Assembly (NCBI GenBank): GCA_028688905.1
Contig: JAQTXH010000001.1
Location: forward strand, 1-64,000
Length of the DNA: 64,000 nt
Direction of reading: 5' to 3'
Origin: Acidiphilium sp.
GTDB lineage: Bacteria; Pseudomonadota; Alphaproteobacteria; Acetobacterales; Acetobacteraceae
Shown here: positions 19,606 to 36,748 of the stretch, piece after piece
How positions within the stretch are numbered: the first letter of the stretch is position 1
Layout: every line of letters begins with the position of its first letter
Position numbers and translations under genes: made by a program
Notes under the pieces: model-generated
Told to the model about the DNA's origin: nothing
What the model saw: the letters and a program-made list of their open reading frames with translations, nothing else
Database searches by the model: none

Positions 19606-19631
19606 TTCGCCGGCTACACGCGGGAGGTTAC
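19606..19631 (-). promoter_or_regulatory. Sigma-F-type promoter of the arsM operon
   Basis: On the minus strand GTAACC (19631-19626), a spacer of exactly 16 bases, then CGAA (19609-19606), about 40 bases before the arsM start. The pattern agrees with that recalled for Caulobacter sigma-F and recurs in front of six other gene groups here. Confidence 0.75.
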
Positions 19632-19707
19632 CGGGGAGCCGCGAAGTGCGCGCCGACGCCCCTGCGCTGTTCGAATCCTCCCACATGTTGAGAAACTCTC
19701 CGGGTCG

Positions 19708-19733
19708 GAAACCTTCAGCACGGGTCGGACGAA
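19708..19733 (+). promoter_or_regulatory. Sigma-F-type promoter of the radical SAM-DUF547 operon
   Basis: GAAACC (19708-19713), 16 bases, CGAA (19730-19733) on the plus strand, about 40 bases before GTG 19771. The -35 box differs from the consensus at one base. It is divergent from the arsM promoter, so both arsenic transcripts would start from the same intergenic region. Confidence 0.62.
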
Positions 19734-19770
19734 CTATCGGATAGGACCGGCCGCGCTGGGCGCATCTTCC

Positions 19771-21156
19771 GTGAAAACCGCGAACTCCGTCAGCCGGCGG
19801 TCTGGCCATCCAGGCGAGAGATGCAGCGAGGACAAGCTGACCGTAGTGACCACGCCCCTCGAACGCGCCCGGCAGAGAATGCAAGAGACGGGACAATGGG
19901 ATCCTGCACAGTTCGTCGGCCGACGGACTGCGATTGGGTGCGTTGCCCTGGAGATCACCCAGCGCTGCAACCTCGATTGCAGCGCGTGCTATCTCTCCGA
20001 GCATTCCGAAGCGGTGAAAGACCTGCCCCTCGAGGAGGTGTTTCGCCGTATCGACATGATTCACGACGCCTACGGGTCCGACGTCGATATCCAGGTGACG
20101 GGCGGCGACCCTACCCTCCGCAAGGTCGACGAACTCGTCGCAATCGTTCGGCGCATCAGCGAGCGCGGCATGCGGCCGGCGCTGTTCACTAACGGTATTC
20201 GCGCCACGCGCGCGTTGCTGACGCGGCTGGCGGACGCAGGCTTGATCGACGTCGCATTCCACGTCGACATGACGCAGGAGCGGCGCGGTTACGCGAGCGA
20301 GATCGAGCTCAACAAGCTTCGATTCGCCTATATCGAGCGCGCGAGGGGATTGCCTCTGGCCATCTATTTCAACACCACGGTTTTCGGCGGGAACATCGAT
20401 CAGATCCCAGACGTGGTGGCTTTCTTCGCTCAACATAGCGATGTCGTGCGATTGGTGTCTTTCCAGCCGGTCGCAAAGACAGGGCGCGGGATCTTGGACC
20501 AGCACTCTTCGATCACCACGGACGCGTTGATCAGGCAGATCGAGAAGGGTGTCGGCACGTCGGTGACCTTCGATACGGCGCATGTCGGCCACGCGCGCTG
20601 CAATCGCTATGGGATGACGTTGATCGCGAACGGTCGGGCCTACGATGCCCTGGACAACAAGCCCCTGTACAACGCGCTGCTGACACGAACGGCAAGAATC
20701 CGATTCGACCGTCATCGGCCGCGCCATGCGATCGCAACCTTTCTGAAATGCCTTGCGATGAACCCCGATGTCGCCGCGCGGGCCAGTTGTTGGTTTCTGC
20801 GAAAGCTGTGGCGCATGAAGCACGACCTGATCGCCGCGCGCGGCCGCGTGAACAAGCTGTCGTTCTTCATCCACAACTTCATGGACGCCTGCGAGCTGGA
20901 TCCGGAGCGGATCAGAGCTTGCGTGTTCATGGCCGCGACGCGGGACGGTCCCGTCTCGATGTGCCAATTCAACGCCCATCGCGACGCGTCCATTCTCAAA
21001 CCTGTCCGTCTCCGGAAGGACGATGGCGAGTGGTTTTGGAACCCTCTTTCGGGCGAGGTCGCGAAGGGCAAGCCGATGATCAAGCCCCCAGAGATTGAGA
21101 GGCCGAGGCGCGCAAGGGCCAAAGCGTCCCGAGGCGGCGCAGATGTGGCGCCATGA
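19771..21156 (+). CDS. Radical SAM enzyme next to arsM
   Basis: Up to 461 residues. The radical SAM cluster motif is CNLDCSACYLSE (about residues 64-75) after LEITQR, followed by VTGGDPTLR and a TIM-barrel-like core. Several cysteines in the C-terminal half (CNRY, CLAM, CWF, CEL, CVF, CQF) could hold a further cluster. The start is uncertain: GTG 19771 as listed, GTG 19846 or ATG 19879. It is divergent from arsM and overlaps the DUF547 gene. Arsenic-linked radical SAM enzymes attach adenosyl or aminocarboxypropyl groups to methylated arsenic, but this one cannot be assigned to a reaction. Confidence 0.85.
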   Translation: MKTANSVSRRSGHPGERCSEDKLTVVTTPLERARQRMQETGQWDPAQFVGRRTAIGCVALEITQRCNLDCSACYLSEHSEAVKDLPLEEVFRRIDMIHDAYGSDVDIQVTGGDPTLRKVDELVAIVRRISERGMRPALFTNGIRATRALLTRLADAGLIDVAFHVDMTQERRGYASEIELNKLRFAYIERARGLPLAIYFNTTVFGGNIDQIPDVVAFFAQHSDVVRLVSFQPVAKTGRGILDQHSSITTDALIRQIEKGVGTSVTFDTAHVGHARCNRYGMTLIANGRAYDALDNKPLYNALLTRTARIRFDRHRPRHAIATFLKCLAMNPDVAARASCWFLRKLWRMKHDLIAARGRVNKLSFFIHNFMDACELDPERIRACVFMAATRDGPVSMCQFNAHRDASILKPVRLRKDDGEWFWNPLSGEVAKGKPMIKPPEIERPRRARAKASRGGADVAP

Positions 21157-21976
21157 ACGCGCGGCACGAAAGCGTTGGGGCCGGCGGCACACGCTGCTGC
21201 TCGCGTTCCTTGCTGCAATAGTGGTCGCGGCGATCGGTGGGCTTGTGATGAACGAAACACCCGCAGAAATCGATCCCCCCAGAAGTCTTGATCTCGATCG
21301 ATGGGACGCGGCCTGGACCGATGTCCTGGCGCATCACGTCGATGCGCGCGGCCGCGTGGACTTCTCGGGTCTTGCCAAAGACCAGGCCGGACTGAGCGAG
21401 GTCGTCAAATTCATTGCGGCTGTTGATCCGGCATCCTCGCCGGAGCTATTTCCCACACCGAATGCCCGCCTGGCCTACTATCTCAACGCGTACAATGCGC
21501 TCGCCATGTACGGTGTCCTCGATGCCGGCGTGCCGAAGCGGTTCGGGTGGTTCGGCCGCATTCGATTCTTCGTTCTCCGCAAGTTCACGATGGGCGGCCG
21601 GGCGATCTCGCTCTACCGCCTGGAGAACAGCGTGATCCGCCCCCTCGGCGATCCTCGCGTGCATTTTGCGCTGAACTGCATGTCAGTCAGTTGCCCGCGG
21701 CTACCGCAGTCCGCATTCACCGCGAACGAGCTCGACGAACAGCTCGCCGCCGCGGCGCGCGAGTTTGCTGCTGAGAAACGAAACGTCGATGTCGACCACG
21801 GCGCCAAGGAACTCCGGATATCGGGAATATTCAAGTTCTACACCAAGGATTTTCTCGCCAAGGCCCCGAGCCTTGCGGCGTATATCAATCAGTGCCGGCT
21901 ATCGCCGGTGCCGACCGACTACAAGATCGTCTTCGACGACTACGACTGGTCGATCAACGATCAAGGCCGCAGGTGA
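21143..21976 (+). CDS. DUF547 protein, membrane-anchored
   Basis: About 277 residues with one N-terminal membrane segment (LLLAFLAAIVVAAIGGLV) and a periplasmic DUF547 domain: YYLNAYNALAMYGVL, RVHFALNCMSVSCPRL and ISGIFKFYTKDF. The His/Cys-rich centre resembles a papain- or transglutaminase-like active site, although no activity is established. ATG 21143 overlaps the end of the radical SAM gene by 14 bases, so the two are coupled. Confidence 0.85.
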   Translation: MWRHERAARKRWGRRHTLLLAFLAAIVVAAIGGLVMNETPAEIDPPRSLDLDRWDAAWTDVLAHHVDARGRVDFSGLAKDQAGLSEVVKFIAAVDPASSPELFPTPNARLAYYLNAYNALAMYGVLDAGVPKRFGWFGRIRFFVLRKFTMGGRAISLYRLENSVIRPLGDPRVHFALNCMSVSCPRLPQSAFTANELDEQLAAAAREFAAEKRNVDVDHGAKELRISGIFKFYTKDFLAKAPSLAAYINQCRLSPVPTDYKIVFDDYDWSINDQGRR

Positions 21977-22452
21977 GATGAGTGGACAAATGGAGCACGC
22001 GGGCTTCGCCGGCGCGCTAGCGTTTCCGACGATTGGGGGCGTCTACGAGTAACTGGAAGGTCAAGCCCAGCGGACGAAATTGCGCTTCCAGGGGGAAAGC
22101 GCGGGAGGGCGAGGAATCAAACCAGGTGGCGGCGTCCGCAGTGGGTGAAGCCGCTGCAGCTTTTCGATCGGTCTACTGCGATGACCGCACCGTAACCTTC
22201 TGCCACGACAGGCCGAACTTCATGAGAGGACACTAGCTGTCGGACCGCTGCGAATGATTGCCCCGTCAAATGTCGCTCTAGAACATGCCGAAGAAGGCCT
22301 GAGCCAGCTCCCAATAGTCTGTCCGATCGCAGAGAAAACGGCGGGCGATATCTCGGACCGTCAGCGCGAAACGCCTCGCGCTGATCGGACAGCCGCCAGC
22401 GCACTCCATTCTCGACTTTGAGTTTCCATCCAGCCTCCCCAGGAGCCAAGCT
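21977..22452. other. Long non-coding leader, possibly with a decayed gene
   Basis: No complete gene is convincing. A sigma-F-type promoter lies at 22192-22217 pointing right, leaving about 230 bases before the DUF6789 gene. On the minus strand a tail reading TVRDIARRFLCDRTDYWELAQ and ending at about 22277 looks protein-like, so part of a lost gene may survive here; this is weak. Confidence 0.35.
22192..22217 (+). promoter_or_regulatory. Sigma-F-type promoter upstream of the DUF6789 gene
   Basis: GTAACC (22192-22197), 16 bases, CGAA (22214-22217). The next likely gene starts at 22453, so the leader would be unusually long. An intervening gene may have been lost, or a small RNA or short peptide may be made. 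Confidence 0.65.
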
Positions 22453-22902
22453 ATGAGCAACGCCGAGAAATACGGAAAGGGCCTCCTCGCCGGACTGGCG
22501 GCGACGGTCGTTCTTTCCGCCATCATGATGATGAAGCAAGCCATGGGGCTCATGCCCGAGCTCAACCCCATCGCGATGATCACGAAAATGTCCGGTTCCA
22601 GCGCGCCCCTGATGGGCTGGATGGGGCATTTTTTGATCGGCACGGTGCTTTGGGGCGTCCTCTATGCGGCGCTGGATGCCAAACTGCCCGGGCCCCACTG
22701 GTTGCGCGGCGCGATTTTCGCGACCGGCGCCTGGTTCATCATGATGGTCATGCTGATGCCGATGGCAGGGGCTGGCCTGTTTGGACTCGGCCTGGGTATG
22801 ATGGCGCCAGTCGCCACCCTCATGCTGCACTGGATCTATGGAGCCGTGCTAGGCGGCGTCTACGGCGCCTCGACGCGTCGGGGCCAAGCGGTTGTGGCCT
22901 GA
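22453..22902 (+). CDS. DUF6789-like integral membrane protein
   Basis: A 149-residue protein with about four hydrophobic segments rich in methionine (VVLSAIMMMKQAMGLMPE, FIMMVMLMPMAGAGLF). It resembles the DUF6789 family of unknown function. An AGGAG ribosome site lies before the ATG. The many methionines could bind soft metals, but this is only a suggestion. It follows a sigma-F-type promoter. Confidence 0.8.
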   Translation: MSNAEKYGKGLLAGLAATVVLSAIMMMKQAMGLMPELNPIAMITKMSGSSAPLMGWMGHFLIGTVLWGVLYAALDAKLPGPHWLRGAIFATGAWFIMMVMLMPMAGAGLFGLGLGMMAPVATLMLHWIYGAVLGGVYGASTRRGQAVVA

Positions 22903-23144
22903 TCGCCTCGCGAACGGTGTCGCCGCAATCTCTGGATCGGGCTCCAATTTCAGAGTCCGGGTGAGAGTCACAGCCTGCTGACTGTCACCCGACTTCGCAC
23001 GCTTGGCTTTCGCTCTGCTTGCAGCCGGGTCGCGAGCAGTTCAGTGCCTGCTCCATCCTGCTTGAGAACGACGGATTGGATGCTCGCTTTGCGGCCGCTG
23101 AACGGCCCTGCAACGGGCTTCGGTGCTGAGGGGATAGTCGACGG

Positions 23145-24146
23145 ATGTTGCCAAGGAAATCATCGGGGCGGGATCTCGAGGGTTCCCGAGCCGCGAAATC
23201 GTCCCGTGCGATGTGGCTCGGAGAGGCCGGTACACTTGTTTATATCGCGGTGATCGCGTCGATCGCCCAGGCGACACACCTTCCCTACGTGCTGTTCCCC
23301 GAACTCGGAGCGCTCTCTCACGACGTTCTCAAGCGACCGCACGGGACCTGGGCCAAAGCGCCACTGATGCTTGTCGTCACGCCCTTGCTTACGGGCGTCG
23401 TTGGCACTTTGGTCACTCAGCATTTCGACTACAGCTTCGTTTCGGTCCTCCTGACGATCGGCATCGCTATTGCCATCATCGGCGTGCTGCGATCCCCGAT
23501 CGCTCCAGCCATCTCCGCAGGACTCCTTCCGCTGTCGCTAGGGATTTCAACCCCCCTCTATGCGCCCTCGTTGCTGATCGGGCTGGGCACCCTCGCGGCA
23601 GTTTCGCTCATCTGGCGTCGCTTCGTTCCTCCGCCGCCGGAGGCCGGATCGCCAAGGGATCTGGTGGACGACATCGTTGAAGAGGCGCCGCGCGATTACT
23701 CATGGGTTCCCTTCTTCCTCATCTTTCTGGTCATTGCGATCCTTCTGGTGGAAGTGACCGGCTGGCGATTACTCCTGTTCCCGCCGCTGGTCGTCATCGC
23801 ATTCGAGATGTTTGCCCATGCGCACGTCTGCCCGTGGGCTGGCCGACCATTCATTCTTCCGATTGCCTGCACCCTCACCGCGGCTGCCGGCGTCGCCCTC
23901 GTAGTGTTCTTTGGGGATGCCCCGCTCGCGGCGGCGGCCAGCATACTCTTCGGAATCGGAGTCCTGCGCGTATTCGACCTGCATGTGCCGCCGACACTCG
24001 CAGTCGGACTGCTACCGTTCGTAATTCCAAACGTCGGCTACGAATTTCCGATCTCTGTCGGGGTCGGAACGCTGCTGCTGACCATGTGCTTCCTCGCCTG
24101 GCGCAGGGTGGCCGTCACGAAATTTGCGAAAATTCTGCACTGGTGA
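23145..24146 (+). CDS. HPP-family-like integral membrane protein
   Basis: A 333-residue protein with about nine or ten predicted membrane segments in two similar halves. FPELGALSHDVLKRPHGTWAKAP in the first half resembles the HPP-family segment, and AHVCPWAGRPFILPIACTL is its counterpart in the second half. HPP proteins include nitrite transporters, but the substrate here is unknown. ATG 23211 is an alternative start that removes a charged N-terminus. Confidence 0.7.
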   Translation: MLPRKSSGRDLEGSRAAKSSRAMWLGEAGTLVYIAVIASIAQATHLPYVLFPELGALSHDVLKRPHGTWAKAPLMLVVTPLLTGVVGTLVTQHFDYSFVSVLLTIGIAIAIIGVLRSPIAPAISAGLLPLSLGISTPLYAPSLLIGLGTLAAVSLIWRRFVPPPPEAGSPRDLVDDIVEEAPRDYSWVPFFLIFLVIAILLVEVTGWRLLLFPPLVVIAFEMFAHAHVCPWAGRPFILPIACTLTAAAGVALVVFFGDAPLAAAASILFGIGVLRVFDLHVPPTLAVGLLPFVIPNVGYEFPISVGVGTLLLTMCFLAWRRVAVTKFAKILHW

Positions 24147-24154
24147 GGCGTCGC

Positions 24155-24486
24155 ATGACACGCATTCGGATCTATCACGAGCCTGACGGTGAACTTCTTG
24201 CCGAAGGTCCGCTCGGATTCTTCGGCATTACCTCATTTGAGGGCAACTACTACATCACTACATCAGCAAGGGCTGTCTGAAGACCGAAGGATTCCGCACG
24301 AACTGGATTCCGGGATTCTGCGTGTACAAGTTCTTCTATATCTGGCTCGATTTCCTCGATCGTGATGGCGGCCGGGACCGCATGCTTGGCTGGCGTTATT
24401 TTCTACCAAACCCGATTTTCTTCTTTATTTTTCTTCGAGTCGGTGTGCCGCAGCAGAGCCCCCACATCAGCGTTCAGAAGCTCTGA
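24155..24486 (+). pseudogene. Frameshifted small protein gene (8-base tandem duplication)
   Basis: The frame from ATG 24155 reads well through GFFGITSFEGNYYI and then breaks. The 8 bases ACTACATC occur twice in tandem (24249-24256 and 24257-24264). Removing one copy restores a 107-codon gene continuing SKGCLKTEGFRTNWIPGF, VYKFFYIWLDFLDRDGG and LPNPIFFFIFLRVGV to the stop at 24484-24486. I do not recognise the family with confidence. The gene starts 9 bases after the HPP-like gene and belongs to its operon. Confidence 0.75.
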
Positions 24487-24616
24487 CGAGGGATTATTGC
24501 TGTGCGCGCAAGGTCGTCGCGGATTAGCTGTCCCCAGACGCGCGTGCTGTCCGGCGGACGTCGATTAGACTAGATCGCCTCTGATGGTTAGGCTCGACGA
24601 TTGATTGGATAGTCGT

Positions 24617-25102
24617 CTATCCGTGAATATAGCTCCATCCGGCTTCCTCGAGCTCGACGACACGGCCGACGCCGAACGGAACTAACCTGGCGCCTGGGAT
24701 CAGGGTGATAGCGTGGCCCTCATTCTCCTCGGCGATCTGGCGCGAGGAGTCGCACATGCTGAAGACAATGCCTGGAATGTTCTGGCGCAAATAGGCCAGT
24801 GGCTGCTGTAGCGGCGACGTGTCAGAGCGGAACAGCCTAATGCCAGATCCGTTTGCCACTATCTCGATCGAGACATTCTCGTTCTTCATTGCATAGTCGC
24901 GGGTGATGTTCATTGAATAGCTGATAGCATGGCCCATGATCTTCTCGTTGTCGGAGTCGATCAGAATCACGACCCGATGCAGTGGGGGTCGCGCCGGTGA
25001 CAAGGCGGACGTCGATTGAGGATGCAGCAGCGTCGCGATTACAAAACCAGCGATCAAAGCGATAAATGCCAGGAAGGCGCTTCGAACCCGTTGCATCGGC
25101 AC
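24617..25102 (-). CDS. DsrE-family-like exported protein
   Basis: A 161-residue protein with an N-terminal hydrophobic segment (AFLAFIALIAGFVIATLL), then a DsrE/F-like fold: VVILIDSDNEKIMGHAISYSMN, VSIEIVANGSGIRLF and GIVFSMCDSSRQI with a single conserved-looking cysteine. DsrE-type proteins handle sulfur on cysteine. Last gene of the thioredoxin-CcdA minus-strand set. Confidence 0.72.
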   Translation of the reverse strand: MPMQRVRSAFLAFIALIAGFVIATLLHPQSTSALSPARPPLHRVVILIDSDNEKIMGHAISYSMNITRDYAMKNENVSIEIVANGSGIRLFRSDTSPLQQPLAYLRQNIPGIVFSMCDSSRQIAEENEGHAITLIPGARLVPFGVGRVVELEEAGWSYIHG

Positions 25103-25256
25103 TTCATTCCCCGGGATTTGTCCCGTTCATCAATTTAAGAGATTGTGTCCGACTCTGGCATCCGCGTAGTGGACTCAGACGTTAGCGTCGGATTAGGTCT
25201 GGCGCTCTCTTCACGACGTCAGATCGGCTAAAGGGGCAATCCGCCCCATGCAAATG

Positions 25257-25925: not shown

Positions 25926-26029
25926 GGCTACATGTCCTAGCGAGTTGCGGTGAATAGTTGGAAGCCGCTTGGGACCCACGTGTCGCAACTGCGTGGGTGC
26001 ATTCGATTGGGGTCGCCACATCGCGACCT

Positions 26030-26758
26030 TCAATAGCGTGTCGTGAGATCAACCAGCCAAGTGGGAGACGCAGCGACGAGGGCGGCCTCGAGTGTGCGAT
26101 CGAACCCGCTGAGGATCATCGTTGCTACGGCCAACGCTCCTACGCCGAGGATGACCTTACCGAGCTTCCCCACTCCCATGAGATTGCCACGCAAGCGACT
26201 GAGCGCCTGGCGTGAGAGCGAGCCAACGATCAGCAGCGGGATGGCGGTCCCAAGACCGAACGCCACCATGACGATCGCCACGCTGGCAAGATCGCGTCCC
26301 TGAGCCGCGAGGAGGGATGCTGCACCGAGGGTCGGCCCGACACAGGGGCTCCAGATAGCGCCGAGCAACAATCCGAGAACGAACTGGCCGCTGAGCCCAC
26401 TCGGCGAGATTCGCGCGATCAGCCGATTGCCGGCATTGCTGATTCCTCCAGCCGCGATTGCGAAGCGCTGTTGTAGCGCGCCGCTGAGCAGCACCACCCC
26501 CAGGAGACCCAGGAGCACCGCGGAAATCGAACGGAAGACGCTGCCATCGAGGCCGATGGAAAAGCCGACCGTCGCCACGAAGAGCCCGACGGCGACGAAT
26601 GAAGTGACCAGGCCGGCGGCCAATGCCGGCACGCCCAGGCGATGCACAGCGACCGCCGGTCCGAGGACGAGCGGTAGCAGCGGAAGAACGCATGGGGATA
26701 GTGTCGAAAGGATTCCGGCCAGGAAGCCGAAACCGATACTGCCGATTGGGAGGGCCAT
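26030..26758 (-). CDS. CcdA-type thiol-disulfide membrane transporter
   Basis: A 242-residue, six-segment membrane protein of the CcdA/DsbD family. The two redox cysteines are in LSPCVLPLLP (residue about 23) and WSPCVGPT (about 138). It carries reducing power from cytoplasmic thioredoxin to the periplasm, probably for the thioredoxin encoded 22 bases upstream. In metal stress it would keep exported thiols reduced. Confidence 0.9.
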   Translation of the reverse strand: MALPIGSIGFGFLAGILSTLSPCVLPLLPLVLGPAVAVHRLGVPALAAGLVTSFVAVGLFVATVGFSIGLDGSVFRSISAVLLGLLGVVLLSGALQQRFAIAAGGISNAGNRLIARISPSGLSGQFVLGLLLGAIWSPCVGPTLGAASLLAAQGRDLASVAIVMVAFGLGTAIPLLIVGSLSRQALSRLRGNLMGVGKLGKVILGVGALAVATMILSGFDRTLEAALVAASPTWLVDLTTRY

Positions 26759-26780
26759 GCTTCTGATTCCGCGAATGAGT

Positions 26781-27179
26781 TCATTTTGCTTTCAGCAGAA
26801 GCGCCTTGATCGAATCGAGATCAGTGTCGCCGACCGACCGTCCCTTTTCCTTGGAGCCATGAAACACGATCAATGTGCTCTGCATTTGCGCACCAAACGA
26901 ACGAACCACGTCTTTCTGCGTGTCGAAATCAACCTTGTAAATTACGAGATCCCCGAACATCGGGCTTTCGGCCAACTGATCGATGATAGGATGCTGCTTC
27001 GCGCAGATCGGGCACCAAGTCGCGGAGATGTCGACAAGAATCGGCTTGTCCTCGTGCTGGGACGCCGCAAACGCCTGTTGTGTGTACGGTGCCTGGCTTG
27101 CCGCCAGGGCCGCCCCGGCTGGAGCGAAGTATAGTCCGATCATGAGCATGATCGTCGACAAGAACTTGATGGATGGCAT
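26781..27179 (-). CDS. Exported thioredoxin-like protein
   Basis: A 132-residue protein with a signal peptide (MPSIKFLSTIMLMIGLYFAP up to about AALA) and a thioredoxin fold with the redox motif WCPIC. I chose ATG 27179 because GGAGA lies just upstream and the signal peptide starts there; the longer open frame is not protein-like. It is the probable partner of CcdA and the first gene behind a sigma-F-type promoter. Confidence 0.86.
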   Translation of the reverse strand: MPSIKFLSTIMLMIGLYFAPAGAALAASQAPYTQQAFAASQHEDKPILVDISATWCPICAKQHPIIDQLAESPMFGDLVIYKVDFDTQKDVVRSFGAQMQSTLIVFHGSKEKGRSVGDTDLDSIKALLLKAK

Positions 27180-27249
27180 CCTGATCTCCCAATGGCCGTT
27201 GAGCGGAAGCGCTCGGCGTCTGGCGACGTCGATAGTCCCTATATCGGAG

Positions 27250-27275
27250 TTCGGAGCCGGTCGGCGGAAGGTTAC
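27250..27275 (-). promoter_or_regulatory. Sigma-F-type promoter of the thioredoxin-CcdA operon
   Basis: Minus strand: GTAACC (27275-27270), 16 bases, CGAA (27253-27250). It lies about 70 bases before the thioredoxin start at 27179 and would drive thioredoxin, ccdA, the Tat protein and the DsrE-like gene. Confidence 0.75.
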
Positions 27276-27551: not shown

Positions 27552-27577
27552 GTAACCCTTTTGGCGCTCACAACGAA
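27552..27577 (+). promoter_or_regulatory. Sigma-F-type promoter of the YiiX-like gene
   Basis: GTAACC (27552-27557), 16 bases, CGAA (27574-27577), about 33-42 bases before the start of the downstream gene, an ideal distance for a promoter. Confidence 0.75.
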
Positions 27578-27609: not shown

Positions 27610-28413
27610 GTGAGGGGCATGAACCGTATATTGGCCAGGATCGGTCATACCCTCGCCAGATTTCTGAGCGGTGAGCGACACGTCCACAGCGCAACCCCGC
27701 TGACGCCGCCGGACCGGCTGATGAATTGCCTAGAGCCCGCCGACGTGGTGTTGGTTGAGGGCAACTCGAAGATCAGCACCGCCATCAAGTACCTAACACA
27801 GTCGACGTGGTCGCATGCGGCCCTCTATGTCGGGCCGCCCGGCTCAGAGTTATTTTCTGATCCGATGCATTGCTTCATCGAAGCCGATCTCGTAGCAGGC
27901 GTCCGTAGCGTCGGCTTCGAGGAATTCGTGGGAATGCCGACGCGGATATGCCGACCGGTCGGGTTGAACGAAGCAGAATGCCGAGCGGTCGTCGATTTCG
28001 CGATCAGCCGCTTAGGGCACAGCTACGATCTCAGGAATATCATCGACCTTGCACGCTACCTGTTCCCAACGCCCCCGGTGCCGTCCCAATTTCGCCGACG
28101 GATGATCGCGCTCGGAAGCGGAGATCCCACCAGAGCGATTTGCTCGACGCTTATTGCCGAAGCTTTCCAGTCGGTGAATTATCCAGTTCTTCCGACCATC
28201 GAGTATCGCGCAGCCGCGACCCAGGAATGTCCCCACTGTATGGACGAGATTTTGCACATCCGCCACCATTCCCTCTTCGTCCCGCGCGACTTCGATGTGT
28301 CGCCCTATTTCCGAATCGTGAAGCCGACAATCGATGGCAATTTCGACTTCAGGACTCTCCAATGGGAACGGGAGGCTGCTCGCCAATCGGTCGAGGATGC
28401 AGCCCATCCATAA
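27610..28413 (+). CDS. YiiX/YebB-like permuted papain-fold hydrolase (C92-like)
   Basis: A 267-residue protein of the NlpC/P60-related YaeF/YiiX class. Visible are the opening ADVVLVEGNSKISTAIKYLT, the probable catalytic His in WSHAALYVG, and a C-terminal Cys in RAICSTLIAEAF; the order His before Cys marks the circular permutation. It may cleave amide bonds in peptidoglycan or lipids. GTG 27610 or ATG 27619 are possible starts. A sigma-F-type promoter precedes it. Confidence 0.82.
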   Translation: MRGMNRILARIGHTLARFLSGERHVHSATPLTPPDRLMNCLEPADVVLVEGNSKISTAIKYLTQSTWSHAALYVGPPGSELFSDPMHCFIEADLVAGVRSVGFEEFVGMPTRICRPVGLNEAECRAVVDFAISRLGHSYDLRNIIDLARYLFPTPPVPSQFRRRMIALGSGDPTRAICSTLIAEAFQSVNYPVLPTIEYRAAATQECPHCMDEILHIRHHSLFVPRDFDVSPYFRIVKPTIDGNFDFRTLQWEREAARQSVEDAAHP

Positions 28414-28829: not shown

Positions 28830-28997
28830 GCGACTACCTCCTGCATAAGCTTCATCACGACCGAAGACCCGCGAAAGCCAGCTTCGAATTGCTCCTGACT
28901 GCGAGCGCTGAGCATCATTCATTCTCATCATCCCATTCCGTGAACTAGCCGTGACCGACCACGCCCACGCGGGCGACTTGGGCTTTGACCGCCAGTC

Positions 28998-29657
28998 TCA
29001 TAATGGTGTTGCACAGGACTGATCTTTTGCATTGGAACGGTCCAAGCCGATCCAAGGCCTGCCGGCGAAAGTCCGCGGCGTAGCGAGATGGCGCTTCAGC
29101 GCTGCAGCATCGTCGACATCCTCCAAGACCTCGACAAATGCGACACTGTGTTTGCGTAGATTAGTTATCGTATCTTCGAGCGCGTGCTCGGAGGACCAGC
29201 GTACTTTTGCGAACGGATCGACGAATTTCGGCCGGCGGCGCAGGCCGACGAGCCAATAGCCGCCGTCCATCGCTGGACCGAAAACGGCGTCGTTGCTTCC
29301 CAGCAGGCGGAAAGCCTTGGCAATGGCTGCCGTGGAAATTCCCGGAATGTCACTGCCGACGATCACGACGGGACCAGGGGGCAAGCGTTGAGCCACGGCC
29401 GCCATACGATCGCCGAGCGAACCGCGGCCCTGAGGGATCATATGGAATAGCCCTGGCATGGGTCGTTGCGGCATTGGTGTCAGGGCGAGCCAGGTGATCC
29501 ACCGTGGGTCGCCGGCGAGGCGCCGCAGCGTCATTTGCAATATGGTCCGTTGAAACCTGAGCGCTTCAACGGCGCCGACATCCCTGGCGAGGCGACGCTT
29601 GCCTGAACCAAGGCGGGGAAGACGGGCAAAGACAACGAGGTGACAAGTCAACGCCAT
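28998..29657 (-). CDS. TIGR04282-type (arsenosugar) nucleotidyl/glycosyltransferase
   Basis: About 219 residues, a GT-A fold like CofC and MobA: LVVFARLPRLGSGKRRLA at the N-terminus, VVIVGSDIPGI, then DAVFGPAMDGGYWLVGL and RWSSEHAL. This set of motifs marks the TIGR04282 family, named for its place in arsenosugar gene clusters. The start ATG 29657 is two bases after the stop of the TIGR04283 gene. It probably activates or transfers the arsenic-bearing sugar; the exact step is not known. Confidence 0.88.
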   Translation of the reverse strand: MALTCHLVVFARLPRLGSGKRRLARDVGAVEALRFQRTILQMTLRRLAGDPRWITWLALTPMPQRPMPGLFHMIPQGRGSLGDRMAAVAQRLPPGPVVIVGSDIPGISTAAIAKAFRLLGSNDAVFGPAMDGGYWLVGLRRRPKFVDPFAKVRWSSEHALEDTITNLRKHSVAFVEVLEDVDDAAALKRHLATPRTFAGRPWIGLDRSNAKDQSCATPL

Positions 29658-29659
29658 AT

Positions 29660-30325
29660 TCAACCATAGAGTCGATGAATGAGGTGCGGGGGCACGCCGA
29701 GGAAATACAAGGACAGGCAGCCCAGGTTGCGGGCGCTTCGCCGAAGCCAGCCGTCTCGGCACCAGCGAGCGGCGGAGGTCAGCGCACGCGTTTGGAGGAC
29801 CACGAGCCGCCGGCGTCCGATGCGTCGGATCAAATCGACGTCCTCCATGAGGGGGATGGGGCGGAAGCCCCCCAACGCCTCATAGAATGCCCTCCGGATC
29901 AGGAGGCCCTGATCGCCATAGGCGAGGCCAAGGGCCCGTACCCGCCACGCCACCCAGCGCTCCAAGCGGCGGGCTTTGGTGGAGGCGTCGTCCAATGCGA
30001 AGCCGAAGACGGCGGCGCGTTCGGCATTGTGGGGCACCGCCATGAACGCCTCTGTTTCCTCCCTCCAGCCGTTCTCGAGGAGCGTGTCGCTGTGCAAGAA
30101 TAGCAGCCATTCGGTTTCTACCATGGCCGCGGCAGCGCAGAGCTGGTTTCCCCGGCCGCGCCGCGCTTGCACGACACGCGCGTTTCGGGCCCGGCCGACT
30201 TCAGCGGTGTTATCGGTTGAGCCGCCGTCCGCGATCAGCACCTGGTCTCGGCGCCCGAGCGCCGCGAGGGTTGCTGGCAGGCTCGCTCCTGAATTGAGCG
30301 TGGGAATGATGACGGTCAAAGTCAT
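29660..30325 (-). CDS. TIGR04283-type (arsenosugar) family 2 glycosyltransferase
   Basis: A 221-residue family 2 glycosyltransferase: TVIIPTLNSGASLPATL, ADGGSTDNT, GRGNQLCAAA, FLHSDT as the metal-binding motif and YGDQGLLIRR with MEDVDL near the end. The TIGR04283 family is a regular neighbour of TIGR04282 in arsenosugar loci. The start overlaps the TVP38 gene stop by 4 bases. Confidence 0.88.
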   Translation of the reverse strand: MTLTVIIPTLNSGASLPATLAALGRRDQVLIADGGSTDNTAEVGRARNARVVQARRGRGNQLCAAAAMVETEWLLFLHSDTLLENGWREETEAFMAVPHNAERAAVFGFALDDASTKARRLERWVAWRVRALGLAYGDQGLLIRRAFYEALGGFRPIPLMEDVDLIRRIGRRRLVVLQTRALTSAARWCRDGWLRRSARNLGCLSLYFLGVPPHLIHRLYG

Positions 30326-31041
30326 CGCGTACCCCGCTTTCTAAGCCAAGTGACGAGGAGGGGCACGAGCGCAAGCAAAGCGAGACCGATGCGGAGCGCG
30401 ATCATTGCGGGCTCTAAGAGCTCGTCATTCGGACCGCGCGAGCTCGCGCCGGCGGCGAGGGACAGACCGTCGCCGATCGAAGTGAAGGCCAATGTGCCGG
30501 GAATGATTCCGATCAGAGTCGCGAGAGCGAAAGACCGCAGCGGGGTGCGGAATGCGGCCGCCGCCAGATTAACAGCCCAGAACGGAAAGAGAGGAACCAG
30601 TCGCAAGAACATGAGATAGGTGAAAGCATTGCGGGCAAATCCGTCCTCCATCCGCGCGATAAAGGCGCTGCTTCGGGCACGAAGCGCGTCGCCGACGACG
30701 AACCGGGCCAGGATAAACAGTATGACGGCGCCGGTCGTCGCGCCGAAAACACTCAGCGCCGCGCCCAGCCACAGGCCGAATAGAAGACCGCCGGCGATTG
30801 TCATGATGGTGGCGCCGGGCAAAGAGAAGGCAACGACTGCGATATAGGCCAGCAGAAAGCCCATGATCGCCAAGAAACGATGCGTACTCGCGAAGCCATG
30901 TAGCCGGCGCTCGTTGGCGCGCAGGCTGTCCAACGTGATATAGCGGTTCAGACCCAGAAGGAAGAAGGCGAGGATGAATGCGGCGATGATACCAAGCGGA
31001 ACCAGCCGTTTGCCGAGCGTCGCCGGTGTCATCCGAACCAT
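30322..31041 (-). CDS. TVP38/TMEM64-family membrane protein
   Basis: A 239-residue protein with about six membrane segments and the SNARE-associated/DedA-like core: SLPGATIMTIAGGLLFG and RLVPLFPFWAVNLAAAAF. These proteins are lipid scramblase- or transporter-like. In arsenosugar clusters it may move a product or lipid intermediate. It overlaps both neighbours by a few bases, in a tightly packed operon. Confidence 0.87.
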   Translation of the reverse strand: MVRMTPATLGKRLVPLGIIAAFILAFFLLGLNRYITLDSLRANERRLHGFASTHRFLAIMGFLLAYIAVVAFSLPGATIMTIAGGLLFGLWLGAALSVFGATTGAVILFILARFVVGDALRARSSAFIARMEDGFARNAFTYLMFLRLVPLFPFWAVNLAAAAFRTPLRSFALATLIGIIPGTLAFTSIGDGLSLAAGASSRGPNDELLEPAMIALRIGLALLALVPLLVTWLRKRGTR

Positions 31042-32480
31042 CCCAGGAGGCGCACCAGCCAGCGGGTTCGATCACTGAACAGCGTTGGGGTGTAGAAACT
31101 GCCGGCAACTCGTTTCGTGATTTCGCTAAAACTGGGATAAGGCGCGATGGCGTTGGCCAGCGCGCCGATCTTGAAGTGCCCCGAGACGGCCAAGGTCCAA
31201 GGCAGCAGCAGCTCCCCGGCCTGCCTCCCAACAATGGTAGCCCCGAGGACGCGCCCCCGCTTGGTGACCATAATCTTCGCGAATCCGCGCTCGGCACCGT
31301 CTGTGCGTGCGCGGTCAATCTCCGTGAAGGGTTCGCGAAGGACCCTCACGTGGTGACCATGGTTTTCGCGGGCTTGAGCCTCGGTCATGCCGACTTGCGC
31401 CAGCTCCGGGTCCGCATAAGTGACCCGGGGAAAGGCCCTTAGGTCAACCTTGGCGGGAAATCGGAACAAGGCGTTTCGGAGGATAATCCCCGCGTGGTAA
31501 CCGGCAAGATGCGTGAATTGATAACTGCCGGCGACATCGCCCGCGGCGTATATTCTCCGATTGCTGGTGCGGAGCCGCGCGTCGACCTCGATGCCCTTGG
31601 GGCCATATCCGACGCCCGCCGCTTCGAGATTTAGATCTTCAACGTTCGGAAGTCGTCCGGTTGCAATCAGCAGATGCGATGCATCGATTTCGTGTTCCCC
31701 GTTCTGGTCGGCGAAGGTGACAGAGATCCGCGCGCCGTTTGACCGGACGCACGGATCGACGGCGGCCTCATGCAATCGCACGCCATCCTCGATCAGGGCT
31801 TGGCGCAGGACCGCGACAGCATCGGGGTCGTCTCGCGGCAGTAGGGCGCTGCGCGAGAGCACCGTGACCTCGGCGCCCAACCGGCGGTGCGCTTGCGCCA
31901 TCTCGACTCCGATCGGCCCGCCACCAACGATGACCAGATGTTGTGGAAGGACCGCGTTCTCGAACAGCGTCTCATTGGTGAAGTAGGGCACCTGATCTAA
32001 GCCCGGTATCGACGGGACATTGGGCCGGCTCCCGGTCGCGATCACAATTCGGCGGGCGCAAAGCCGCCGGCCGCCAGCCTCGATTGTGCGCCCATCGACG
32101 AAACGCGCGCGGGCGCGGATGACGGTACAGCCAAGGCGGGTGAAGCGCTCCTCGGAATCGTGCGGCGCAATAGCACCGATGACACTGTGGACGTAGTCGT
32201 GAACCTCGCTGAAGTCGAAACCGGCTGAAACCGCCGGACCGCCAAAGCGCGCCGCGTCGTGCAGCGAATGGGCAAGCTTGGCGACCGCAAGCAACGACTT
32301 CGAAGGGACGCACCCGGTATTGAGGCAATCGCCGCCCATGCGATTGGCCTCGACGAGCACGGTGCGCGCGCCCATCTGGGCGGCGCCGGCGGCGATCGAG
32401 AGTCCTGCGGAGCCCGCGCCAATGACGCAGAGATCGGTGTCGGATGCGTTGCCGCGCGCTATCGGCTTAGTGTTGCCCAC
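31029..32480 (-). CDS. MerA-like FAD-dependent disulfide oxidoreductase
   Basis: About 483 residues. Motifs: CVIGAGSAGLSIAAGAA, redox-active GGDCLNTGCVPSK, second nucleotide-binding IVGGGPIGVEM and AAGDVAGSYQF. Unlike MerA there is no C-terminal cysteine pair, so mercury reduction is unlikely. Flavoproteins of this type occur in arsenosugar clusters with TVP38 and TIGR04282/04283, perhaps to reduce arsenic-thiol intermediates. I use GTG 32480 as start, which overlaps the radical SAM stop by 14 bases; the longer frame would run deep into that gene. Confidence 0.85.
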   Translation of the reverse strand: MGNTKPIARGNASDTDLCVIGAGSAGLSIAAGAAQMGARTVLVEANRMGGDCLNTGCVPSKSLLAVAKLAHSLHDAARFGGPAVSAGFDFSEVHDYVHSVIGAIAPHDSEERFTRLGCTVIRARARFVDGRTIEAGGRRLCARRIVIATGSRPNVPSIPGLDQVPYFTNETLFENAVLPQHLVIVGGGPIGVEMAQAHRRLGAEVTVLSRSALLPRDDPDAVAVLRQALIEDGVRLHEAAVDPCVRSNGARISVTFADQNGEHEIDASHLLIATGRLPNVEDLNLEAAGVGYGPKGIEVDARLRTSNRRIYAAGDVAGSYQFTHLAGYHAGIILRNALFRFPAKVDLRAFPRVTYADPELAQVGMTEAQARENHGHHVRVLREPFTEIDRARTDGAERGFAKIMVTKRGRVLGATIVGRQAGELLLPWTLAVSGHFKIGALANAIAPYPSFSEITKRVAGSFYTPTLFSDRTRWLVRLLGWFG

Positions 32481-33405
32481 TGCACGATGCTCCGCCCAGG
32501 ACGCAGAACCGCGCGCAGAAGGGGTGATTGAGTGGAACGGGCTGCGCGGTCGCCGCAGCCAGCGTCGTCCCCAGATCGAACGCCGGATCATATGGCAAAA
32601 GCGTGCAGGCCGCGACCGTCGGTCGATCCGCGCCCTTATGCTTCACGACCATGCGAGAGCTGGAGCACATTACCGACGAGGGGCTTCGCCCAAGAATGGC
32701 CCAGCACTGCTCGGTGATCTCTGGCACATCCTCATCCGCTCGCATTTCCGGGAAGAGTATGAGCTGGGCGTGATCGCGTTCGTCGACCGGAATACCCAGT
32801 TCAGCAAAAAGACGGCCATAGCCCGCTCTGAGCTGATCTTCTGTCTCACCCCAGATCATACGGCCTGCGACAGAAACGGCGAGCCCTGCCCTTACCAACC
32901 ATAGCAGGCCTGCAATGGTTGGCTCCCAGCTCCGCGCACCCCGAAGTTGCTCATGACCGGCCTTGTCATAGTGGTCGAGAGAAACCCGAAGGAATAGCTT
33001 GCCGGGAAATCGCGCATTGAGGGCCGCCAGTGGCCCCATCAGTTTTTGCATGGGCTTCATCGCGTTGGTCAGCACCAACACCCTGAAGCCCGCGCCCAGG
33101 CTGTCGGCGATCAGGTCGATGATGGCGGGATTTATGAACGGCTCGCCGCCGGTAAAGCCGATTTCGGAGGGCTGCGGGTGCCGGCGCTTTGCCTCGTCCA
33201 AGAAGGGCCGCACGTCATCCCGGCTCAGGTAGATCAGGCGATCGTTCCGTGGACTCGACTCGATATAACAATTGTCACATGCCAGATTGCAGAGGGTTCC
33301 GGTATTAAACCAAAGTGTATCCAGGGTGCCGAGCAGCACGCTGGCCCGGGGCGCACCAGTCGCGGTCACGTATGGATCGATGAACTTCTTCACTGCAACG
33401 GCCAT
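32467..33405 (-). CDS. Radical SAM enzyme of the arsenosugar set
   Basis: A 312-residue radical SAM protein with cluster motif CNLACDNCYIES, followed by GFTGGEPFINP (SAM contact) and the partial barrel. Its C-terminus holds more cysteines (CARFCVLGGASC), suggesting a second site. Arsenosugar synthesis needs a radical SAM enzyme (ArsS) that moves a 5'-deoxyadenosyl group onto dimethylarsenite. This gene is in the right place, but I cannot say that it is ArsS rather than another family. It leads the operon to TIGR04282 behind a sigma-F-like promoter. Confidence 0.83.
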   Translation of the reverse strand: MAVAVKKFIDPYVTATGAPRASVLLGTLDTLWFNTGTLCNLACDNCYIESSPRNDRLIYLSRDDVRPFLDEAKRRHPQPSEIGFTGGEPFINPAIIDLIADSLGAGFRVLVLTNAMKPMQKLMGPLAALNARFPGKLFLRVSLDHYDKAGHEQLRGARSWEPTIAGLLWLVRAGLAVSVAGRMIWGETEDQLRAGYGRLFAELGIPVDERDHAQLILFPEMRADEDVPEITEQCWAILGRSPSSVMCSSSRMVVKHKGADRPTVAACTLLPYDPAFDLGTTLAAATAQPVPLNHPFCARFCVLGGASCSGQH

Positions 33406-33439
33406 GGTCCATCCAAGATATCGTCATATCCCTGGTAAG

Positions 33440-33465
33440 TTCGCCGGCAAGACCCGAAAGGTTTC
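33440..33465 (-). promoter_or_regulatory. Sigma-F-like promoter of the arsenosugar operon
   Basis: Minus strand: GAAACC (33465-33460), 16 bases, CGAA (33443-33440), about 35 bases before the radical SAM start at 33405. One mismatch in the -35 box, the same variant as at 19708. Confidence 0.62.
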
Positions 33466-33556
33466 TGGGCGACGGTAAGCGGTTGTGTCGTGGCGCGATG
33501 TCCGACAACGATCTGTGCAAGCGGGTCGGCGTCCGACGAGTGGCTGGTCGACCTGG

Positions 33557-34429
33557 TTAAGACCGGAGGATCCTGCCAGCGACAGCGTCGAGCCTGCCGA
33601 GCAGGTCACGGTCGCGCGCGCAGGGAGTGGTAATAAGGGCGGCATCCAAAGCTCGGTCGCATCCATGCGGACAGGACGCCGGTCTCTCATCCCTGAGCCG
33701 CGGCGCGAGCAGCCGGATCAGTCGCCTGGCGTTTTCGGCATTATCGTTCAGTACGCGGATGACGTCGGCGACCTGAACATGGGCGTGGTCCGGGTGCCAA
33801 CAATCGAAGTCGGTGACCATGGCGACCGTCAGAAAGCACATCTCGGCCTCGCGCGCGAGCTTCGCTTCCGGCATGTTGGTCATGCCGATGACATCGCACC
33901 CCCATGAGCGATAGATGCGCGATTCGGCCAAGCTTGAGAATTGCGGACCCTCCATGGCGAGGTAGGTGCCCCCTAGACTCACCGGGACGGAGGCCTCGAC
34001 CGCGCATTGGTGCGTCAGGTTGGCAAGCCGATCACAGGTCGGATGCGCCATTGAAACATGTGCGACCAACCCCTCGCCGAAAAAGCTGCTCTGTCGCGCT
34101 ATGGTGCGATCGACAAATTGATCCACCACAACGAAATAGCCTGGCGGTAAATCCTCGCGAAGCGAGCCGCACGCTGATACCGACAATAGATCGGTGACGC
34201 CCGAACGCTTCAAGGCATCGATGTTTGCACGATAGTTGATAGAACTCGGTGAATGGCGATGTCCACGACCATGCCGCGGGACGAAGACGATCTGTAGACC
34301 ATCGAGTGTACCGAATAGAAATTCGTCGGATGTCTCGCCGAAGGGCGACGCGACCCTCCGCCAGGTTGGATTCTCCAGCCCGGCAATGTCGTAAACGCCG
34401 CTTCCGCCAAGTACACCTAAAGTCGTCAT
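33557..34429 (-). CDS. S-methyl-5'-thioadenosine phosphorylase-like enzyme
   Basis: A 290-residue purine nucleoside phosphorylase of the MTAP type: GVLGGSGVYDI, FVPRHGRGHRHSPS (phosphate binding), INYRANIDALK, SACGSLREDL, GGTYLAMEGPQFSSLAES, and GMTNMPEAKLAREAEMCF. In arsenosugar loci a phosphorylase of this kind can remove adenine from the adenosylated dimethylarsenic product. It lies 39 bases after tlpA and probably shares the sigF transcript. A role in ordinary methionine salvage cannot be excluded. Confidence 0.9.
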   Translation of the reverse strand: MTTLGVLGGSGVYDIAGLENPTWRRVASPFGETSDEFLFGTLDGLQIVFVPRHGRGHRHSPSSINYRANIDALKRSGVTDLLSVSACGSLREDLPPGYFVVVDQFVDRTIARQSSFFGEGLVAHVSMAHPTCDRLANLTHQCAVEASVPVSLGGTYLAMEGPQFSSLAESRIYRSWGCDVIGMTNMPEAKLAREAEMCFLTVAMVTDFDCWHPDHAHVQVADVIRVLNDNAENARRLIRLLAPRLRDERPASCPHGCDRALDAALITTPCARDRDLLGRLDAVAGRILRS

Positions 34430-34468
34430 TCTTACTGCGCCCTGGTTCGTGAGCGGACGGCGAAGCCG

Positions 34469-35071
34469 TCACTTTAGATTGATGAAATAGTCGATGAACG
34501 AACGTGCGAGCGGAGAATCCCACGTCGTGGGACCAACTAGAAACCCTGTGACCAAGCCCCGCTTATCCAAGACGTAGGTGGTTGGATAGCCATAGACCGG
34601 CATCGTCGGTCCGGGCTTTCCCTCACTGGTCAGCGCGCCAAATTCGTGGTCGGGATCAAGCACTACGGTCAGGTACCGAAGATTGTGTTGCTTGACGAAT
34701 GACCTCACCTGCTGGCCATCGCCGCTGTCGAGTGAGACCGCGAGGACGACAAAGCGGTCGGGAGGAAGACTCGCCGCAAGTGCCTCGAGGGACGGCATTT
34801 CTTCCACACAAGGAGCACACCAACTGGCCCAGAAATTGAGGAGGACGACCTTTCCGTAGAACTTGTCCACGCTCAACGGGCGGCCGTCGAGGCCGCGCAG
34901 TCGCATGAGCGGCGCCGGCTTCAGCGGCTCTTCTAAAATGAACTGGCTTATTCCGTTGCGCAGCGTCGGCGGATTGAGCGATTCGGGACGTGCGTTCGCG
35001 CTCGAGACCGTTGCCGCCGCAGAAACGAGAACCACTGCTGCAATGCGCAGGAACGCGGGCGTCCACATCAT
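34469..35071 (-). CDS. TlpA-like exported thioredoxin
   Basis: About 200 residues: signal peptide (MMWTPAFLRIAAVVLVSA to about SANA), then a TlpA/ResA thioredoxin fold with NFWASWCAPCVEEMPSLEAL and a late cis-proline region VYGYPTTYVLD. It reduces disulfides in the periplasm. The start lies in an ATGA overlap with the nrsF gene, so the two are co-translated, and it may act on the sigma-F signalling disulfides or bufferin cysteines. Confidence 0.88.
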   Translation of the reverse strand: MMWTPAFLRIAAVVLVSAAATVSSANARPESLNPPTLRNGISQFILEEPLKPAPLMRLRGLDGRPLSVDKFYGKVVLLNFWASWCAPCVEEMPSLEALAASLPPDRFVVLAVSLDSGDGQQVRSFVKQHNLRYLTVVLDPDHEFGALTSEGKPGPTMPVYGYPTTYVLDKRGLVTGFLVGPTTWDSPLARSFIDYFINLK

Positions 35072-35739
35072 GTGAAACGGTCCAGCGGCTGGGGCGCCAC
35101 CCAGGACAGCATTCGCCGCCCGAAGATCCTGCCAAGGGCGATGATCAGCAACGCGGCCCCCACGTTCCACATGAGGATCATGACAGTTGCATCAATGTCG
35201 TGGAACAGAGACAGGGCGCTTGCGGTCAGCGCGCCAACGGCGACACTGCCCATCCAGATTGCAGCGACCGGACGTAGCCGCGCTGTGTAACGCAGCATGA
35301 CAAGCAGCGCCAAGGACAGCGGCAAGCTGGTCAGCACCAGGGTTGCGAAGCACGATACCGCCTCGCCCATTTGCATGCCCGCCGGGCCTACGGAGACCCA
35401 ATTGGTCAAGCAGCCGACGCCGACAGTCGACATCCAGACCATCAGGCTCGGCAGAGGGAGGAGGCTGTACAGGCGTGAACGATCGGGGAGGCTGAGCATG
35501 AACGCAGCGACGGTTGCCAGCACACCCGTCAGCAGGGAGGCAAGAAGGCCAACCACGTAGGCGCGATCGCCGAGTTGCTTCGCAAAGTCCGGACGGAGGC
35601 CGTGGCTGATTCCCAACAGGACGAGAACCAAGCCAGCCAAGGCGAGCCAGCAGCACGCTCGTAGAAGCGGTGGTCGAAGGCGACGCACCGGCGCCGGATT
35701 GGCACTGAGAGACGCTATGAGGTCTGGGGTCGTGATCAA
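35068..35739 (-). CDS. nrsF: NrsF/DUF1109 anti-sigma factor
   Basis: A 223-residue protein with six membrane segments and the DUF1109 pattern. Cysteines facing the membrane or periplasm are visible (VGCLTNW, AVSCFATL); in Caulobacter NrsF, cysteines are needed to sense metals and release sigma-F. Its start overlaps the sigma factor stop by 4 bases. It presumably holds the sigma factor at the membrane until metal or thiol stress. Confidence 0.9.
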   Translation of the reverse strand: MITTPDLIASLSANPAPVRRLRPPLLRACCWLALAGLVLVLLGISHGLRPDFAKQLGDRAYVVGLLASLLTGVLATVAAFMLSLPDRSRLYSLLPLPSLMVWMSTVGVGCLTNWVSVGPAGMQMGEAVSCFATLVLTSLPLSLALLVMLRYTARLRPVAAIWMGSVAVGALTASALSLFHDIDATVMILMWNVGAALLIIALGRIFGRRMLSWVAPQPLDRFT

Positions 35740-36371
35740 GAAATATCACCCTTGCCAAGAATCGCTCGGAGACTCTTGAGAGCCCGATGTGTCGCAACTT
35801 TCAGCGCTGCGATGGACATACCGCTTCGATCCGCTGCTTCCTTCAACGACATCTCCTGGAGCTTCAGAAGCGTGATGGCTTCCCGTTGGCCTGGCGGCAG
35901 TTTCTCCACCGCTTCGCGCAACGAGCGTCCATCGGCTCTCGTTTCTAAGTTCGTCTCAGCGTCAGCAATGGTTTCATGGTCTTCGTTCAATGGCGTTTCG
36001 CGGCGAGCGGAACGTCCCTGTTGCCGCAGCCGATCAATGATCCGCCTACGGCTGATTGCCACAAGCCAGGGCGTGAAGGGACGTGTCGGGTCATATATCT
36101 GGCGAATGGAGTGGATGGTGAGCAAGATGTCTTGGATCGTGTCTTCGACATCTTGAGGAGAGCGATGATGTCGACCGACCAAAACGCGCAGATAGGGCGT
36201 GATCTCGGTCAGAAGCCGGCTATAAGCCTCACCGTCGCCGGCCTGCGCCCGCGCCATGAAGATCGACCATTCGACGTCGCGCTTCGCCGAAGCATTATCA
36301 GGACGGCGACTGGTCCGGCTTTCACCAACGACTCTCAATAACGGGTTACCCTTCTGGCTGCCCGATGCCAT
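35736..36371 (-). CDS. sigF: ECF sigma factor, SigF-like
   Basis: About 211 residues. Sigma region 2 is visible (FMARAQAGDGEAYSRLL, QDVEDTIQDILLTIH, FTPWLVAISRRRIIDRLR) and region 4 (LPPGQREAITLLKLQEMSLKEAA, MSIAALKVATHRALKSLR). Pairing with a DUF1109/NrsF anti-sigma identifies the SigF group. The start is uncertain (36371 chosen; 36389 and 36257 possible). A weak sigma-F-like element, ATAACG-N16-CGAA at 36404-36429 on the minus strand, may allow autoregulation. Seven promoters of its probable class are spread over 17 kb around it. Confidence 0.9.
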   Translation of the reverse strand: MASGSQKGNPLLRVVGESRTSRRPDNASAKRDVEWSIFMARAQAGDGEAYSRLLTEITPYLRVLVGRHHRSPQDVEDTIQDILLTIHSIRQIYDPTRPFTPWLVAISRRRIIDRLRQQGRSARRETPLNEDHETIADAETNLETRADGRSLREAVEKLPPGQREAITLLKLQEMSLKEAADRSGMSIAALKVATHRALKSLRAILGKGDIS

Positions 36372-36748
36372 CGACCGTCTTCCTCGCAACTTCGGTGCCG
36401 CGATTCGACATGAAGTCTGGTCGCGTTATTCCGCAGTATCTCCGAGGAGGGCTTCTGGCAGGGGATTTCTTTTTGCCGACTGATGGTAACCTTTAACGCT
36501 GAGATGCGAACGCTTGCGTGACCGCAGCGGGGCCGCGTGGCGCCAAGGGCGGGCGGAAGGTCCGCCGAGGTCAATGGCGCTGTGACGTCGGGCGAGGCCT
36601 CGTCGTGATGAGTGGGCCGAAATGTGCCGCGCTGGCTGAACGTAACCATTCTACCCCAACAGCCGAACTTTGAATTGAGCAGGCTACAACGGCGTGCTCG
36701 CTAGCGCACGATCTCCGTCGCTGGCTCAACCCGTTCGGAGGTTTCTAC
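36372..36748. other. Intergenic region between sigF and the bufferin operon
   Basis: No gene seen. It holds the good sigma-F promoter at 36642-36667. A second near-match, GTAACC at 36486-36491 with CGAA at 36507-36510, has only 15 bases between and is less certain. A weak minus-strand candidate for sigF itself is at 36404-36429. Confidence 0.5.
36642..36667 (+). promoter_or_regulatory. Sigma-F-type promoter of the bufferin operon
   Basis: GTAACC (36642-36647), 16 bases, CGAA (36664-36667), some 80 bases before the bufA start at 36749. The bufferin operon of Caulobacter is itself a sigma-F target, as I recall, which makes this the best-supported site of the series. Confidence 0.8.

Follow-up and report, generated by a model that had tools for sequence, protein, structure and literature searches.

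A predicted SigF regulon spanning the metal cargo of a conjugative-type element in Acidiphilium, with a candidate promoter for its anti-sigma factor inside sigF

What might place genes for arsenic methylation, arsenosugar-type synthesis, copper binding and periplasmic thiol repair under common control on a mobile element, and how is the sigma factor encoded among them held in check? The question is raised by the first 64,000 nucleotides (nt) of contig JAQTXH010000001.1 of an Acidiphilium sp. (assembly GCA_028688905.1), a stretch referred to below as the window. Since it also holds an integrase, mer genes, a relaxase, a coupling protein and type IV secretion system genes, the cargo is part of a conjugative-type element. 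We consider it likely that this cargo is the regulon of SigF, an extracytoplasmic function (ECF) sigma factor of the ECF16 type, and that SigF would also start a transcript within its own gene, making the brake, its anti-sigma factor NrsF, and not more sigma factor.

Exact matches to GWAACC-N16-CGAA number eight in the window; 100 dinucleotide shuffles gave an expectation of 0.22 and never reached eight. A sequence-only reading of this DNA had located seven of these boxes, and each is present at its coordinates and strand with a spacer of exactly 16 nt. That reading had also pointed to a likeness to the sigma-F motif of Caulobacter; the words are indeed those of the published SigF consensus, GTAACC-N16-CGAA (PMC3511200). 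The seven are intergenic and lie 32–81 nt before a gene start, except for that of DUF6789 at 235 nt.

Family assignments with Pfam and NCBIfam give the predicted units as follows. The box at 19606–19631 (minus) precedes an ArsM-like methyltransferase gene (18506–19567), and that at 19708–19733 (plus) precedes a radical SAM gene (19771–21156) and its DUF547 partner (21095–21976). The more distant box at 22192–22217 (plus) is followed by DUF6789 (22453–22902). At 27250–27275 (minus) the box precedes a thioredoxin gene and a gene for a DsbD/CcdA-type membrane protein (26030–26758); the thioredoxin open reading frame (ORF) as listed extends past its own box, and an ATG near 27179 is assumed as its start. 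A YiiX-like, C92 amidase-like gene (27610–28413) follows the box at 27552–27577 (plus). The box at 33440–33465 (minus) precedes a series (28998–33405) of radical SAM (32467–33405), FAD-reductase, VTT, GT2 glycosyltransferase and DUF2064 genes, located near an S-methyl-5'-thioadenosine (MTA) phosphorylase gene. Within it the glycosyltransferase scores above the cut-off of the arsenosugar profile TIGR04283 and the TIGR04282 match reaches 132.7 against a cut-off of 134; the names arsM and arsenosugar radical SAM, as first proposed, hold only at the family level, both proteins falling under their NCBIfam cut-offs. Finally, the box at 36642–36667 (plus) precedes a bufferin operon with the defining features of Buf1: bufA (36749–37096; a DUF2282 precursor with four cysteines in its C-terminal part), bufB (an MNIO protein above cut-off), DUF2063 and DoxX (to 39361). 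Two further boxes have a 15-nt spacer. One lies upstream of bufA as well (36486–36510, plus); the other (17704–17728, minus) lies in the 3' end of an MIP gene, with an AhpC/TSA gene (17018–17539) starting 164 nt further on, and is a weaker claim because it is inside coding sequence.

The sigma/anti-sigma pair named in the sequence-only reading is borne out by Pfam. sigF (35736–36389, minus; a TTG-start ORF whose true start may be further in) matches Sigma70_r2 and r4_2, and nrsF (35068–35739, minus) matches PF06532 at 93.8 bits, above the cut-off. ECF sigma and NrsF (DUF1109) genes in this order form the pair expected of a SigF/NrsF system, here presumed to be of the ECF16 type. Downstream on the same strand follow a TlpA-like gene (34469–35170) and the MTA phosphorylase gene (33557–34429, above cut-off), and the gene order makes a transcript shared with nrsF likely. 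Upstream of sigF no sense box with fewer than two mismatches was found, the best candidate having two.

The eighth box, GAAACC-N16-CGAA, lies inside sigF (35950–35975, minus; codons 139–147), in the linker that joins sigma regions 2 and 4, 210 nt before the nrsF start. Its recurrence was followed in a panel of 115 distinct SigF-like ORFs, taken from loci around NrsF matches, plus locus L033 and the window; ORFs identical to one another were counted as one, no locus contributed more than two ORFs, and ORFs below 64 bits, a duplicate of the window (L096) and an alternative frame (L199) were dropped. An exact box with a spacer of 15–17 nt stands at the homologous linker place in 41 of the 115, and the rest of the coding sequence of these 115 genes, from region 2 to the stop codon (61,254 nt), is free of further exact boxes on both strands. 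Likewise, among 30 region-4 loci of relatives, taken from a larger set and including a few that are not sigma factors, three boxes occur, at exactly the three SigF-NrsF loci.

It could be argued that the seven intergenic boxes act as SigF promoters and that the match within sigF merely mirrors the linker peptide ET-x5-(A/T)N, with no promoter function. The peptide is indeed alike in many genes (e.g., ETFADP.AN), and part of the clade retains the E-T pair with different codons, such as ACT. Because a conserved peptide could imitate conservation of the box, 53 genes were selected solely for a Thr preceded by Glu or Val; they contain 32 boxes, against 2.69 expected from synonymous codon usage. 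The codons at the box are among the top four of 186 columns in synonymous constraint, and the next third base, in an Asn codon just beyond it, ranks 144. At the box letters the choice of codons is thus constrained much more tightly than the peptide would require. Where Val replaces Glu it does so only as GTA (9 of 9, against a background of 41 of 655), the rarest Val codon in these genes. Moreover, a second group of eight genes keeps a box, GTAACC-N17-CGAA, placed 6–7 residues further along, where CGAA falls in a different reading frame and other residues are encoded. A mere echo of the peptide is therefore unlikely, and an intragenic SigF promoter for nrsF would be the plainest reading of the internal box. 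Among the open-licence PMC papers searched, none was found to describe an internal nrsF promoter.

The internal box also occurs on plasmids, in 7 of 19 plasmid SigF loci: all six from betaproteobacteria, whose carriers include Cupriavidus necator and Paraburkholderia fungorum (the latter with GTA for Val), and that of Nitrobacter. It is absent from the plasmid SigF genes of three Rhizobium (one clade), three Pantoea, one Lelliottia and five other alphaproteobacteria. The Pantoea plasmids (L277, L279, L285), which have no internal box, carry sigF-nrsF behind a peroxiredoxin gene and a gene of the thioredoxin family, all on one strand. On a Paraburkholderia fungorum plasmid (L280, 1–6525), mer genes directly adjoin sigF-nrsF and a bufferin operon.

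For ECF16 factors a SigF-type promoter has been described upstream of the sigma gene itself, in Caulobacter (weak autoregulation, metal stress), Bradyrhizobium, Sinorhizobium (a predicted motif) and Brucella; further literature drawn on is cited here collectively (PMC8315932, PMC3420878, PMC6180224, PMC3688512). In the panel, upstream boxes were scored for the 113 of 115 genes with enough upstream DNA, with GTAACC only and not GAAACC. A sense box with at most one mismatch precedes 2 of the 40 genes with an internal box versus 30 of the 73 without one (reversed-letter control, 1 of 40 and 2 of 73), all raw counts that ignore kinship. The near absence of upstream sense boxes from the internal-box class is plain in these numbers. 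A box on the other strand, facing the divergent gene, is found in 23 of 40 and 34 of 73, respectively. Exact upstream boxes occur in 13 of the 115, and a single one of these genes has the internal box too, its upstream box lying 324 nt away. The distribution of the internal box requires at least 22 changes on the tree. We lean, with some reserve, towards the generalization that ECF16 sigma factors would fall into two feedback designs that almost never coincide: in one, a promoter upstream of the sigma gene autoregulates sigma and anti-sigma factor jointly; in the other, a promoter in the linker yields the anti-sigma factor but no sigma factor. The linker design would then span Alpha- and Betaproteobacteria, come in no fewer than two registers and spacings and extend to mobile elements, where it may allow a transferred regulon to be switched on in a new host while sigma activity is kept from running away.

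The boxes recur in related islands. In Ancylobacter dichloromethanicus (L031, L244) the same genes carry boxes at the same places; an alphaproteobacterial metagenome-assembled genome (MAG) contig that ends before sigF (L032) keeps the first five, and on a conjugative Nitrobacter plasmid (L268) the section with sigF and bufA is kept. In the proximal bufA box the spacer is 16 nt in the window but 15 nt in Ancylobacter and Nitrobacter. Over 15 usable comparisons, 150 of 150 box letters are identical, versus 200 of 236 spacer and 727 of 900 flank positions; these are the 15 of 36 site-target pairs left once pairs below 62% ungapped identity were excluded, many targets lacking the gene. The excluded pairs include the Ancylobacter YiiX and radical SAM sites, whose boxes are nonetheless exact, and the proximal bufA box was not entered. 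Outside these islands, the box before the radical SAM-DUF547 pair is also found where the proteins are 78% (L033) and 61% (L035) identical. In 50 genomes (50 of 56 loci used), an exact box directly precedes this radical SAM gene in none of the 36 that lack an NrsF match and in 4 of the 14 that have one (for one of the 14, a match below the family cut-off). At locus L246 a box precedes DUF6789-thioredoxin-CcdA, and at L255, L264 and L260 one occurs at thioredoxin-CcdA. Since boxes recur beyond the close islands, the extended regulon would be more than a local accident, the full set having been observed in the close islands alone.

Some of these loci differ in other ways. Between DUF547 and the DUF6789 box, Ancylobacter (L031, 12170–15284) and the MAG carry about 3 kb with no counterpart at 21976–22192 of the window, which suggests a deletion or an insertion. 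On the Nitrobacter plasmid (L268, 9067–10114) a short piece of MTA phosphorylase is followed directly by an ArsM-like gene (92% identical from residue 79), as if intervening material had been lost. Other box-preceded genes near SigF, possible further targets, encode cytochrome P460-like, DUF3179, DUF3047 and FGE-sulfatase/DinB proteins (L258, 11353–16467; L250, 11163–12159; L256, 5409–6939). At L033 a SigF homologue (58%; 12660–13199) adjoins the boxed radical SAM-DUF547 pair, and that locus showed no homologue of the window's type of NrsF.

Might the boxes instead serve another ECF sigma factor of the host? The genome does offer candidates, with six region-4 matches, SigF included. Its sole NrsF match is, however, the one on the element, the box words are the SigF consensus, and the boxes cluster with sigF. 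The genome has 30 exact boxes, 8 in the 64-kb window and 22 in the other 3.35 Mb (Fisher p 6e-8; reversed-pattern control, 11), and 15 of the 22 fall within ORFs judged coding-like by a simple rule on third-position GC content (GC3). By the sequence-only reading, a pattern just as frequent inside genes would have refuted the idea; that outcome was not seen. Service by another host factor is accordingly very improbable. A share of the regulon on the host chromosome was considered too and rejected, as the 22 outside boxes resemble background.

Several observations weigh against SigF control of the whole set with feedback through nrsF. Across 60 genomes, this one and 59 relatives, GTAACC-N16-CGAA counts are near those of the reversed-pattern control, and by inspection only, genomes with NrsF are not visibly separated from those without. 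No exact box precedes radical SAM-DUF547 in 10 of the 14 genomes with an NrsF match, and L247 has sigF-nrsF amid thioredoxin, CcdA, GT2, DUF2064 and bufferin homologues, yet no exact box. The 19 neighbourhoods chosen for their internal box hold 34 boxes, 19 internal and 15 others, versus 9 reversed-control matches. As for the internal box, 74 of the 115 SigF genes lack an exact one, some close kin among them; its contrast with the upstream box is uncorrected for kinship, and a tree-based test on independent pairs, internal versus upstream box, was not significant. Finally, Caulobacter NrsF has two conserved cysteines (PMC3511200), as is also known from Bradyrhizobium, and the NrsF of the window has Cys130 and, at the second position, His180. 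A cysteine occurs at that second position in 39 of 119 panel NrsF ORFs, a count that includes some misextracted rows; because many panel ORFs also lack it, the two-cysteine trait appears to belong to the characterised members and not to the whole family.

With these points weighed, the DNA-level case for SigF control of the seven units is well supported. The proposal of a single mobile stress regulon stands in part, in that boxes precede the genes, recur in related islands and have the SigF/NrsF pair among them on a conjugative-type element; the box inside sigF and those with 15-nt spacers had been overlooked. We infer recognition of the boxes by SigF, transcription from them, the sign of the feedback and the inducer, in the following circuit. 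NrsF would hold SigF at rest until a metal or oxidant signal frees it. Free SigF would transcribe the seven units (arsM-like, radical SAM-DUF547, DUF6789, thioredoxin-CcdA, YiiX-like, arsenosugar-type series and bufferin) and would also start a transcript at 35950–35975 carrying nrsF, probably together with tlpA and the MTA phosphorylase gene, and not the whole of sigF. Activity would then yield more brake and no additional sigma factor. That the internal start chiefly makes a region-4 fragment of SigF, alone or with NrsF, rather than NrsF alone, is hardly credible: the box lies directly before region 4, which the transcript would span, but an unscored inspection of the alignment by eye reveals no conserved start codon downstream of it.

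The proposed circuit resembles known systems in part. It shares with SigF-NrsF of Caulobacter crescentus (ECF16; PMC3511200) the promoter words, the type of sigma/anti-sigma pair and bufferin-type operons among the targets, which in the window are predicted ones. The Caulobacter system differs in having a SigF-type promoter upstream of sigF, a chromosomal location and a two-cysteine NrsF, and arsM, radical SAM-DUF547 and DUF6789 are not among the targets listed in that source (PMC3511200). The closest parallel to the internal box is rseAP3 of E. coli, a sigma-dependent promoter inside rpoE that starts 228 nt before rseA, versus the 210 nt here, which are measured from box to start and known from sequence (PMC8595263). 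E. coli differs in having an upstream sigma-E promoter too, another ECF group and another type of anti-sigma factor (PMC8595263). Buf1 clusters share the DUF2282 precursor, MNIO, DUF2063 and DoxX, with sigma and NrsF genes nearby (PMC12452194); in the passages of that account drawn on here, arsenic genes are not mentioned and no SigF sites are named. In the perchlorate reduction island, sigF/nrsF also lie on horizontally transferred DNA, but with yedYZ and mrpX as partners, for hypochlorite, instead of arsenic or bufferin genes (PMC4623255). The link of SigF with bufferins was thus known before (PMC3511200, PMC12452194), as was SigF on islands (PMC4623255).

The cargo is flanked by two trbI genes (proteins 91.5% identical), each beside a lysR gene (56%) and inverted relative to each other (7598–9962 and 39484–41824), with DNA about 75% identical over 2.6 kb. 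The left edge of the window (109–6813) holds AbiE-type toxin-antitoxin genes and a gene for a 1657-residue NACHT-domain protein.

What is new is the widening of the predicted target set on a mobile element to arsM-like, radical SAM-DUF547, DUF6789, thioredoxin-CcdA and YiiX-like genes and an arsenosugar-type operon, together with the intragenic anti-sigma box and the alternative circuit that it would imply. Arsenic methylation, arsenosugar-type genes, copper-binding bufferins and periplasmic thiol repair would thereby be joined under one mobile sigma factor. The internal box would be a concrete and widely recurring example of a promoter written through a protein-coding linker and revealed by codon choice. 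If this is true, the feedback sign of an ECF system could be read from sequence, an upstream box meaning sigma factor and brake, an internal box brake only, and the two circuits would become directly comparable by test.

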